Of a stretch of DNA of 64,000 bases, positions 30,090 to 33,712 are shown in pieces. The stretch lies in NCBI GenBank assembly GCA_900343135.1, contig OPYK01000002.1, positions 144,051 through 208,050 on the forward strand, read 5' to 3'. A program made the translations under genes and the position numbers. The notes beneath the pieces are model-generated. The model ran no database searches and was not told the origin of the DNA. It saw only the letters and a program-made list of their open reading frames with translations. Every line of letters starts with the position of its first letter. The first letter of the stretch is position 1. The stretch comes from Atopobium massiliense (lineage in GTDB: Bacteria; Actinomycetota; Coriobacteriia; Coriobacteriales; Atopobiaceae).

Positions 30090-30398
30090 CTGCAAAGCAG
30101 GCGCACGCAGTTTTGATATGGAGTGCGCGTATGCGCGTGCAAAGCACACGCAAATCACCTTACGCATAACGTGTGTTGACGCAGCTCTATTTTGAAGTGC
30201 GCTTTCGCGAAACTTCAAAATAGAGCAGCTCCCAGCAACACACGTTTTTCAATTAAATACGCACGTCTATAAACGCGAAACTCCACATCAAAACTGCTCT
30301 CCGCTATCCGCGTTGATGCATCTAGCTTGGCCTTCTCGCCGCGAATACGGGGAGACTGAAGAGCAATTAGTGCACTGCCTGGCAGCTGCCAGGCAGTA
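30090..30398 (-). repeat. Structured hairpin repeat, copy A (nested)
   Basis: Minus-strand copy of the family seen at 30690 and 33535. It opens with a perfect 24-bp palindrome (30374-30397), then the conserved linker TGCACTAATTGCTCTTCAG and GCGAGAAGGCCAAGCTAGATGCA. The long hairpin is doubled. Outer arms 30280-30294 and 30110-30124 pair over 15 bp with one G-T. Inside their loop sits a second complete hairpin with outer stem 30236-30245/30169-30178, internal loop CTGGGA opposite GT, a 15-bp inner stem, TT opposite C, CGC/GCG and a GAAA loop. No open frame spans it convincingly. Confidence 0.85.
30374..30397. repeat. Perfect 24-bp palindrome (hairpin I of copy A)
   Basis: ACTGCCTGGCAG directly followed by its reverse complement. 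It occupies the position of hairpin I in copies B and C, where a 12-bp stem encloses a 7-nt loop. Being palindromic it reads the same on both strands. Confidence 0.95.
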
Positions 30399-30450
30399 CG
30401 TTTATATGGATTTTTGAAACCGGTTCGCTGCTTACAAAAAAAGTTGAACG

Positions 30451-30642
30451 ATATTAGAAAATTACCCCACTTTGACACGCGTTTTGAAGCCGAGAATTTC
30501 CTTTCTGACAAGTTTTGCGCACGAGGCCAAAAAGCCCCAATGCTCCTACCTGCACAAACGGAAAACGCACGTTTTTGCAGTGGGCTGCAGCGCGCTTGAG
30601 CGACGCCGAAACGCGTGTCAAAGTGGGGTAATTTTCTAATAT
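30451..30642. mobile_element. 192-bp element with 34-bp perfect inverted repeats
   Basis: Arms 30451-30484 (starting ATATTAGAAAATTACCCC) and 30609-30642 are exact reverse complements over 34 bp and enclose 124 bp. Size and symmetry resemble a MITE. No transposase gene and no clear target-site duplication is visible (flanks GAACG and AAGTG differ). It lies between copies A and B of the structured repeat. A minus-strand open frame crosses it but runs through both arms and has no coding character. Confidence 0.7.
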
Positions 30643-30689
30643 AAGTGAAAAAGTTTTGTAAACGCGAAGTGCGCGCGCCGCATGCTCCC

Positions 30690-30867
30690 CACTAAAACGC
30701 GCCGTTTTGCGAGTTGTGCAAAACGGCGCACTCATTGCTTTTCTGTCTTCTTTTTGTTGGAGCGAGAAAATCAAGCTAGATGCACGAAAGCAGGCGCCGG
30801 AGAGCTGTTTTGATTTGGAGTTTCGCGATAAGCGCACTCCAAATCAAAACTGCGTGCGCCTGCTTTC
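30690..30867 (+). repeat. Structured hairpin repeat, copy B
   Basis: 178 nt. CACTAAAAC leads into hairpin I (12-bp stem 30699-30710/30718-30729, loop GAGTTGT), then conserved CACTCATTGCT and AAGCTAGATGCA. Hairpin II has outer stem 30786-30797/30856-30867 (12 bp), CGGAGA opposite GT, GC/GC, a T-T mismatch, a 15-bp stem 30807-30821/30836-30850, TT opposite C, CGC/GCG and a GATAA loop. It ends 11 bp from the stop codon of the surface gene at 30879, facing it. Confidence 0.9.
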
Positions 30868-30878
30868 AATACAACGTC

Positions 30879-33161
30879 CTATTTTTTAATAATGTACGTA
30901 AGCGGCAACGTGCACCATTTAACTTCTTCCTTGCGCCAGCCAGCTTTCACCATTTGTTCTATCTCTTTAGCGTCGGCTGTGTAGTGGTGGTAGAACTTCT
31001 TTTCGTATGGGTTGTACATGCTGTAGAGCTTGTTCAGTGTTACCTCTTTATTTTGAGCACTAAACCACTTCACGCCTTCGTTTTTCCATCCTGCCTTAAC
31101 GCATTGAGCCACTTCGTCTTCATTCATGGTGTAGTGATGCTCACCTGTGGTTGGATTGTACAAGCGGTAAACTCCGCCCTTTTCGCCATGCTTGTAGATG
31201 TAGCCTACGCCACCTTCGCTCTTCCAGCCAAGACGCACGAGGTTATCGTTTTCTACCGTTTCTGCGGTAAAGAAGTGCTCATGTGTGTAGGGGTTATACA
31301 GGCGGTACAACACATGCACGTTAGGATCATCCTGCTTGTCCTTGCTTTTATCGGCGGATACTTTTGGTCCTTTTAAGTAGCGAAACGCCGTATTAGGATA
31401 AGCTGCTACATCTTTCTTGCCCTCTTCAGCAGTGCTCATAGCATACGACTGTTTAGCTGCATGTTCATCGGTATACGCAGGATAGGTAACTTCAGCAGTC
31501 TTATTAAAAATGGGCATAGTACTTGGCGCATAGTATCTTCCTACACCGCACTCTTCATTCTTCTTGCCTAAATTGGGCTCAAGGGAAAGCTTGGAGACAA
31601 GTGTAATGGTGTTTCCATTTTTAGCGTAAAACGCACCACCAGAAATAGTAGAAAGTTGTCCTTTTTTAGTTTTTCCACTGCACAAAATAGCATGCGTATC
31701 GCCTACAAACATGCCACCCGATATGGTATCTACCACTCCAGCATTTTTGATACCCTGCTCTTTACCAGTAAACGTGCCACCTGAAATGTTATCAATATGA
31801 CCTTTAAAGTTTTTTGCCCAACTATGAGTAGTTTCAGACAAATCAACATTTTGTAAACCATCATTGTTTTTACCCGTAAACGTACCACCAGAAATGTTAT
31901 GAATGGTTCCCGCATTCCACAAACCAACGTTTTTACCCGTTGCTTTAACAGCGCTCGTAATTTCATCTACTTCCGTATTTTGCGTGCAATACATTCCAGT
32001 ATTTCCATCTTTTGTGCCAATACTCTGAAACGTACCACCGGTAATACTCCCAATATGCACCTTTTGCTTAGGTGTATTACCCACCGAGAGCATGCCGTTT
32101 ACGCCTATAAACGTACCACCAGAAATTTTATCTACAGTAATAGTGTCGCCATCTTTACCGTTCCGATTGTACAGGACAAGACCTGAGAAAAATGGTTTTG
32201 CTCCTGAGCCACTGCCTATTGGCTTAGTCATATCGTAAAGATTTTTAAACTCGCCACCCGCTATCTCGCCGATGTGACCGCCGCTTTCAACTTGCAGGGC
32301 ACCAAACCTATACGACCTAAACGTACCGCCAGAAATTTTATCTACAGAGGCATGTTTTTCAATAAGGAAACAAGGACTGCTGATGCCTGAATCCTTTGAA
32401 TTGGAAAATGTGCCGCCAGAAATTTCCTTTATTTTTGTCTTCTCTCCAGAAACAGACCACGCAGAACACCAGCTCATATAGCTTCCGCCAGAAATTTTCT
32501 CGACAGTGGCACCGTTATAAACCGCTACTGCCGTACCATTATTAGCTGTGCCATAGTCTGCAACAGGATTATCTATTTTTCCGCCTTCAAAGGATGCTTT
32601 TGTAGTCTCACCCGAAATTTCAACAATAGCGGAGTGCTTAGAGTTAGCCGAACATAATTTAGAGGATATATGTGCGCCTTCTTTAAAGACAAATGAACCG
32701 TTGGTAACTAATACATGCACTTCATCGAGCAGAAGTTCCGAAGAATTATCGCCCGTACCCAAAGTTAAGGTTTTTCCAGATTTTACCTGTAAAGCAACAG
32801 CATATGGTGATTTAGATGGTGTACCTGTTCTTTGTTCATTGCTTGCAGAAAGCGTAGCACCTGTAGCTCCTGCCTTCAGCGTGACGCTCTTATCAATTTC
32901 AACGTTGTTATTCAGCACGACTTTTCCGTACACTTCAAGTACATCATTGTCTTTAGCTGCAGTAAGTGCTGCTTCAAGCGTTGGATAGGTTGCAGTGCCG
33001 CCTTTAATAGATATATGCCCCTGCGCTTGCGGAGTAATTGCCGTGAGCGCGGACGTCGTAAGCTGTAAACCTTGTGCCTGCACCAACTGTGGTAGCGCGC
33101 AGGGCGCCGCAAGTGGCGCCGCAATAAGCGTAGCAAGCATAATCTTTGTTATATGTTTCAT
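30879..33161 (-). CDS. Secreted beta-helix surface protein with DUF5648 tail
   Basis: 760 residues. A signal peptide (hydrophobic to about residue 28, APCALPQLVQAQG) is followed by a pectin-lyase-like start (ATYPTLEAALTAAKDNDVLEV, then KVVLNNNVEIDKSVTLKAG). More than a dozen copies of an (I/V)SGGTF repeat, about every 20-35 residues, predict a right-handed parallel beta-helix. The last 150 residues are three DUF5648 units (LYNPYTHEHFFTAE, LYNPTTGEHHYTMN, MYNPYEKKFYHHYT). There is no LPxTG motif, so attachment would be through the tail. A probable adhesin or wall-associated protein; ligand unknown. AAGGAGAG precedes the ATG. Predicted to vary in expression through the upstream GGCT tract. Confidence 0.8.
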   Translation of the reverse strand: MKHITKIMLATLIAAPLAAPCALPQLVQAQGLQLTTSALTAITPQAQGHISIKGGTATYPTLEAALTAAKDNDVLEVYGKVVLNNNVEIDKSVTLKAGATGATLSASNEQRTGTPSKSPYAVALQVKSGKTLTLGTGDNSSELLLDEVHVLVTNGSFVFKEGAHISSKLCSANSKHSAIVEISGETTKASFEGGKIDNPVADYGTANNGTAVAVYNGATVEKISGGSYMSWCSAWSVSGEKTKIKEISGGTFSNSKDSGISSPCFLIEKHASVDKISGGTFRSYRFGALQVESGGHIGEIAGGEFKNLYDMTKPIGSGSGAKPFFSGLVLYNRNGKDGDTITVDKISGGTFIGVNGMLSVGNTPKQKVHIGSITGGTFQSIGTKDGNTGMYCTQNTEVDEITSAVKATGKNVGLWNAGTIHNISGGTFTGKNNDGLQNVDLSETTHSWAKNFKGHIDNISGGTFTGKEQGIKNAGVVDTISGGMFVGDTHAILCSGKTKKGQLSTISGGAFYAKNGNTITLVSKLSLEPNLGKKNEECGVGRYYAPSTMPIFNKTAEVTYPAYTDEHAAKQSYAMSTAEEGKKDVAAYPNTAFRYLKGPKVSADKSKDKQDDPNVHVLYRLYNPYTHEHFFTAETVENDNLVRLGWKSEGGVGYIYKHGEKGGVYRLYNPTTGEHHYTMNEDEVAQCVKAGWKNEGVKWFSAQNKEVTLNKLYSMYNPYEKKFYHHYTADAKEIEQMVKAGWRKEEVKWCTLPLTYIIKK

Positions 33162-33237: not shown

Positions 33238-33283
33238 TGATAGATTAAGTTATGGATAAAAAGATAGAATTATGCTATTAGTT

Positions 33284-33349
33284 TGGCTGGCTGGCTGGCT
33301 GGCTGGCTGGCTGGCTGGCTGGCTGGCTGGCTGGCTGGCTGGCTGGCTG
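33284..33349. repeat. Tetranucleotide repeat (GGCT)16
   Basis: Sixteen exact GGCT units at 33285-33348, plus one flanking matching base on each side. On the minus strand, the sense strand of the downstream gene, it reads (AGCC)16. It begins 5 bp after the predicted -10 box and therefore forms the first part of the predicted transcript, about 120 bp before the ATG at 33161. Confidence 0.98.
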
Positions 33350-33353
33350 ATGA

Positions 33354-33382
33354 ATTGTGCGCGAATAGTCATAACTTGTCAA
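33354..33382 (-). promoter_or_regulatory. Predicted promoter of the beta-helix surface gene
   Basis: Minus strand TTGACA (33377-33382), 17-bp spacer, CACAAT (33354-33359). The -35 is consensus and the spacing ideal; the -10 matches four of six. The tetranucleotide repeat begins directly downstream at the expected start site. Confidence 0.6.
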
Positions 33383-33534
33383 CCCTTACTATCACGTATT
33401 TCTTATCCTCATTATAAAAGTATCATGTATATTTAGCTAGCTCCGTTATGTAAATTTGCCCATTACCACGACTTTTTCTATGCACTCATAACCAATGTAT
33501 GCATATTTGTAATGAGCATACTCAGTTTCAGTGC

Positions 33535-33712
33535 CACTAAAACGCGCTGCCTTGCGGGGTTTGCAAGGCAGCGCACTCATTGCTCTTCAGTCTTTTTCTA
33601 TTGGCGTTAAGGAATGTAAGGGAAATACACAAACGGGCAGCTGGGAGCTTTGTTGTGGCGAAGTTTCGCTTTAGCGCACTTCGCAGACAACAAAGCGTCT
33701 GCCCGTTTGTGT
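33535..33712 (+). repeat. Structured hairpin repeat, copy C
   Basis: 178 nt, exactly as long as copy B. CACTAAAAC leads into hairpin I (12-bp stem 33544-33555/33563-33574, loop GGGGTTT), then CACTCATTGCTCTTCAGTCTT. Hairpin II has outer stem 33627-33640/33699-33712 (14 bp), CTGGGA opposite GT, inner stem 33647-33656/33687-33696 plus CGAAGT/ACTTCG, TT opposite C, CGC/GCG and a TTTA loop. It ends 16 bp from the stop codon of the surface gene at 33729. Stem sequences are unrelated to copies A and B while pairing is kept. Confidence 0.9.

Follow-up and report, generated by a model that had tools for sequence, protein, structure and literature searches.

Of the two hairpins in a repeated element of Atopobium massiliense, the one here called hairpin II is this genome's version of a multi-copy hairpin family, which spans several genera of the same bacterial family. 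The hairpin family apparently has no catalogue entry so far. Its copies share a conserved palindromic core placed mid-way in a longer, gene-specific stem, and on balance we favor the explanation that this core is a small palindromic repeat that lodged in the loops of terminators and was kept as a part of them.

The element in the window and in the host genome

The window, the whole stretch of 64,000 nucleotides that was analysed, contains three copies of the element, A, B and C (Table 1). Copies B and C are both exactly 178 nt long and consist of hairpin I, a linker and hairpin II, as a preliminary description of this DNA had claimed. Aligned without gaps, they are identical at 97 of the 178 positions. 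Both fold as described, with DNA folding z-scores of −8.3 (B) and −8.5 (C); the value for the region of A is −9.3, and no shuffled sequence matched the native fold. Each lies behind a minus-strand gene; in gene direction the stop codon comes first, then hairpin II, the linker and hairpin I. Hairpin II of copy B, with the tip GTTTCGC-GATAA-GCGCAC, begins 11 nt past the stop codon of its gene, and 16 nt lie between hairpin II of copy C and the stop codon of gene 33729-36008.

The single architecture that had been ascribed to all three copies is found in B and C and not in A, where one hairpin II sits inside the loop of another. The features previously listed for hairpin II of A fit the nested hairpin, and A is not a simple third copy. 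The earlier statement that every pair is kept fails in A, where the outermost arms of hairpin II belong to two different stem types and are unpaired. The stems do vary among copies, yet they do not differ completely: a few stem types recur, and hairpin I is partly common to B and C. Nested hairpins II are also present at two other loci of the host genome (L008 and L014).

Table 1. Positions of copies A, B and C, their parts and the neighboring genes in the window.
Feature	Position	Strand	Details
Copy A, outer hairpin II	30092..30317	-	inner-stem arms 30107-30124 / 30280-30297 paired
Copy A, nested second hairpin II	30168..30246	-	complete; inside loop of outer hairpin II
Copy A, hairpin I	30374..30397	-	perfect palindrome, variant stem
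Copy B, whole	30690..30867	+	178 nt
Copy B, hairpin I	30699..30729	+	12-bp arms 30699-30710 / 30718-30729
Copy B, linker	30730..30785	+	starts CACTCATTGCT; CACTCATTGCT linker common to B and C
Copy B, hairpin II	30786..30867	+	outer arms 30786-30797 / 30856-30867; inner arms 30804-30821 / 30836-30853
Gene ending at copy B	30879..33161	-	760-aa protein, C-terminal DUF5648
Copy C, whole	33535..33712	+	178 nt
Copy C, hairpin I	33544..33574	+	minus strand: GTTTTAGTGG comes next
Copy C, linker	33575..33626	+	
Copy C, hairpin II	33627..33712	+	outer arms 14 bp, 33627-33640 / 33699-33712
Gene ending at copy C	33729..36008	-	759-aa protein, DUF285 and C-terminal DUF5648

Around A and B, a gene is followed by B, an inverted-repeat element, A in reverse and then the next gene. 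The element between them (30432-30661) has inverted ends of 53 nt (TATTAGAAAATTACCCCACTTTGACACGCG) that enclose about 124 nt, and looks like a MITE; its TATTAGAAAATTACCCCACTTTGACACGCG ends recur beside other copies in the genome (L008, L009, L046, L047). Upstream of the DUF5648 gene that ends at B lies a run of about 17 TGGC repeats (33284-33350), a candidate phase-variation tract. Farther on (36440-40165), coupling-protein-like and replication-initiation-like ORFs resemble, in our reading, the start of a Tn916-like conjugative element.

Across the whole host genome, the linker GCRCACTMATTGCT occurs at 9 exact places and at 8 more with one mismatch, about 14 of which have the full architecture, and the hairpin II tip AGTTTCGCn(3-6)GCGCACT at 17 exact places versus 1 for the reversed control. 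A covariance model of 72 copies, none of them from this genome (model R2), detected 18 copies of hairpin II there, at least 13 at E < 0.01. The outer, inner and hairpin I stems are drawn from a few stem types in this genome, in combinations that change between copies. Most copies lie directly past the stop codon of an opposite-strand gene, and several further ones follow genes that share the C-terminal sequence of the DUF5648 genes. Because many mark the 3′ ends of paralogs from a single gene family, the copies within this genome are not independent, and the strong evidence for covariation comes from other genera. In nearly all of 20 copies hairpin I is followed by GTTTTAG, GTTTTTATG or similar, which makes hairpin I a putative, ordinary T-tailed intrinsic terminator; read on the minus strand, that of copy B would serve gene 30879-33161. 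Searched against named genome contigs, the linker pattern gave only scattered matches in unrelated taxa, which we took as chance.

The hairpin family in related genomes

In 60 relatives the tip pattern was found in few places, and four of the five examined form a long hairpin that has this tip and another outer stem. The covariance-model search proposed in the preliminary description, carried out with a model of four relatives' hairpins (R1), gave matches in 34 of 121 sampled genomes of the same bacterial family, distributed over 10 of 35 genera. Copy numbers per genome reach about 22 to 25 (the 22 in genus g4). The core palindrome comprises a GNA/GNA 3×3 internal loop, a 7-bp stem, TY opposite C, a CGC/GCG tip and a GNA triloop; its variant in the host genome has a longer inner stem and a loop of 4 to 5 nt. 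In a second bacterial family within the order, some genomes gave 1 to 4 matches to model R2. Two or three of the four examined are hairpins, yet the tip or the internal loop differs, and the range into that bacterial family is therefore tentative.

The hairpin had not been recognized as a known RNA family, and comparison with Rfam bears this out for both host and relatives. The window had no match to Rfam covariance models at the curated threshold (the top one, mir-7, scored 22 bits versus the 51.8 needed), nor did the relatives' copies match any family. We found no paper on repeats or terminators of Atopobium or Olsenella in the literature that was searched. In IMG/VR a single viral contig has the exact core (L309:2802-2823); given that it was the only one, a phage origin was dropped.

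Covariation was evaluated in 63 distinct copies from other genera, in an alignment fitted to the structure. Compensatory change, suggested earlier from the three window copies, holds in this much larger set: both partners vary in 19 of 20 pairs, 98.6% of the cells are paired in the structure-fitted alignment, and stems that change without compensation were not seen. The covariation score is 0.477, versus 0.139 (sd 0.009) in shuffled alignments and at most 0.092 in slid structures; because the structure guided the alignment and the controls are shuffles and slides, the argument is one of effect size and not of a P value. The preliminary description had concluded that selection must act on the fold. 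That conclusion does not follow, since a hairpin can have its two arms rewritten by template switching during replication, with no selection involved (PMC8794818). Between orthologous rplX stems, whole blocks differ in both arms, as in CCGGATTTCC versus CCGGTTCATC.

Several unpaired positions are conserved as well. The triloop is GNA in 56 of 63 copies, and the internal loop has GNA on its 5′ side in 58 and on its 3′ side in 59, with a free middle base (GGA 41, GTA 8, GCA 5 and GAA 4 of 63); the C facing the tip bulge is present in 63/63. The GNA loops occupy only the strand antisense to the gene. As an argument about strand this is indirect, because the complementary strand is equally conserved. 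An attempt to determine the functional strand from counts of G-T versus A-C mismatches was dropped, because such mismatches were too rare and their counts skewed by the model.

Other genera contain a further hairpin module within long variable stems, ACGTCCTC-(variable inner hairpin)-TGCGGAATGT. It was seen at 35 places among the matches listed, in 16 of 121 genomes, with at most 1 place for the reversed control. Its sites include L283-L302 and the 3′ ends of groL in L191, L199, L203 and L204, and at L286 it is nested in itself, as is copy A.

Positions of the copies relative to genes

Forty-eight distinct copies have an opposite-strand gene ending within 45 nt, versus 3 copies in the reverse arrangement (genes were simple ORF calls, and the 3 reverse cases were counted by eye). 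In the 48 gene-end copies, the T content on the gene strand is 43% over the 8 nt that directly follow the stem and 19% beyond them, versus 14% on the opposite side; in 23 other copies, the same 8-nt stretch has 16% T. Of the three roles offered by the preliminary description, an unusual terminator fits most copies on both counts, and most putatively form an intrinsic terminator stem that a T-rich tail follows. In B and C the T tail comes past hairpin I and not past hairpin II. From their protein sequences, we take the genes ended by copies to include groL, rplX and rpsJ.

Two of these gene ends allow filled and plain terminators to be compared. The 3′ end of groL has ordinary terminators in several genera, and in one genome of genus g4 (G100) a plain terminator, GGAGCCCCCGGTC-ACGC-GACCGGGGGCTCC. 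Other g4 species have a similar outer stem in which the loop is replaced by TTCC-core-GGAA. At the 3′ end of rplX, the core is present in eight g4 species, and plain terminators are found in G114, also of g4, and in eight genomes of other genera. Therefore, the core stands in for a terminator loop, and species differ in whether they have it. At both genes, the flanks of filled and plain terminators are too diverged for exact junctions, and the positions, common to many species, fit old vertical inheritance and mobility equally.

Not all copies are terminators. Some sit immediately upstream of promoters, reversed and without a T tail, and several of these have a forward partner at the end of the gene before, an arrangement that A and B in the window share; head-to-head pairs in minus/plus order are many across the genomes. 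In genus g29, 8 of 8 species searched have the hairpin in frame within the linker region of an ABC-F protein (L227-L234), one way in three species and in the opposite orientation in five. The ABC-F proteins of other genera that were compared have no such in-frame stretch. The five reversed copies carry six substitutions, all protein-changing, four of them at three free loop positions. This clustering has a probability of about 2e−4 if 46 positions are equally likely, in a small sample picked after looking, and it suggests that what is constrained is the nucleic acid and not the protein.

These positions bear on an explanation in which the core is a functional RNA module, a binding or processing site in the 3′ end of the transcript that is selected, spread through duplication of gene ends and was never mobile. 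The 48-to-3 orientation bias at gene ends would be expected of such a module, as would the conserved unpaired positions and the sameness of orthologous sites in many species; orthologous terminators of the same genus without the core, the ABC-F copies in both orientations and the promoter-upstream copies lacking a T tail point the other way. We regard this explanation as unlikely.

Origin of the core and comparison with known systems

We propose instead that the core was originally a small non-autonomous palindrome, which entered hairpin loops, would have been spread by some enzyme or by replication slippage, and may have been retained after entry as part of a terminator, in which the hairpin would terminate transcription or protect the transcript end. 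Template switching could spread such palindromes and also repair them (PMC8794818). The fold, the family, the covariation, the positions, the T tails, the plain counterparts and the nesting were observed; movement, an enzyme and any additional role of the core we infer. A bolder version would make the core a new class of mobile palindromes that enter existing hairpin loops, those of terminators and one another's, through GNA-type DNA hairpin motifs recognized by some enzyme, and were then domesticated as gene terminators; we offer it as speculation with a rather low chance of being correct. No mobilizing enzyme was found for the hairpin family. RAYT transposases were considered as movers and rejected as unlikely; RAYT genes had no hairpin in the flanks that were fetched. 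No Y1 genes were found in G000, in the core-rich G003 or in G100. At L170-L178 in core-rich genomes, there are RAYT-like Y1 transposase genes flanked by inverted repeats different from the hairpin (GGGGACAGTCCCC or GTGCAAAAGGGACAG type).

The core could also be a folded single-stranded DNA site, similar to attC or to a transposon end, for some recombinase, with the GNA-loop strand as the functional one. The restriction of the GNA triloop and of both internal GNA triplets to the strand antisense to the gene would agree with this, as would the nesting and the two orientations in the ABC-F gene, and the GNA loops recall, in our comparison, the GCGAAGC-type DNA mini-hairpins that are treated as unusually stable (PMC4686876). 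Nevertheless, the strong orientation bias relative to transcription, the T tails, the equal conservation of the complementary strand and the lack of any associated enzyme found, with Y1 transposases absent from the host genome and from G003, make such a site very improbable. Just as doubtful is palindrome repair without selection, in which replication template switching copies arm onto arm and the constant fold is a by-product: the process is documented to create and maintain hairpins (PMC8794818) and would produce the block changes in both arms of the rplX stems, but it leaves unexplained the conserved unpaired positions, the constant spacing and the in-frame copies with four of six substitutions at three free loop positions.

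Terminators of housekeeping genes in several genera share a structural module that is gained or lost at orthologous sites. The module is a natural experiment in the origin of terminators, in selection versus template switching as the source of matched stem changes, and possibly in a repeat that targets hairpins. It also carries a warning, since a covariation test by itself would label the family a new structured RNA, and the context mixes terminator and repeat biology.

Like intrinsic (Rho-independent) terminators, the copies follow stop codons in gene orientation and have a GC-rich stem and a T-rich tail on the gene strand. Unlike them, the family has a conserved internal module and tip within its stem across unrelated genes and genera, and some copies, located in ORFs or ahead of promoters, have no T tail. 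The attC sites of integrons conserve structural features while their stem sequence varies, and the hairpin family is similar in this respect; however, it is fixed at gene 3′ ends, and no cassette array or integrase was seen. Rickettsia palindromic elements (RPE) can sit in frame within protein genes, as the ABC-F copies do. They differ from the family in sequence and structure, and the family's coding copy is confined to one ABC-F linker, its main place being the terminator. Two of them, RPE-4 and RPE-6, are classified as CGTC repeats (PMC3733652).

REP elements and REPINs are palindromes tagged with GTAG and CGTC (PMC3733652, PMC3116915). The hairpin family has no constant tag of either kind; it has instead internal-loop GNA triplets with a free second base, fewer copies and variable stems. 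In GTAG families a RAYT (Y1) transposase gene is associated with the repeat and flanked by it, whereas the RAYT loci examined here have other ends (GGGGACAGTCCCC type). REP elements are nonetheless the closest kind of repeat: they too are short multi-copy palindromes, often near gene ends and in head-to-head pairs (PMC3733652, PMC8266576), and some REP families have been reported within larger palindromes (PMC3733652).
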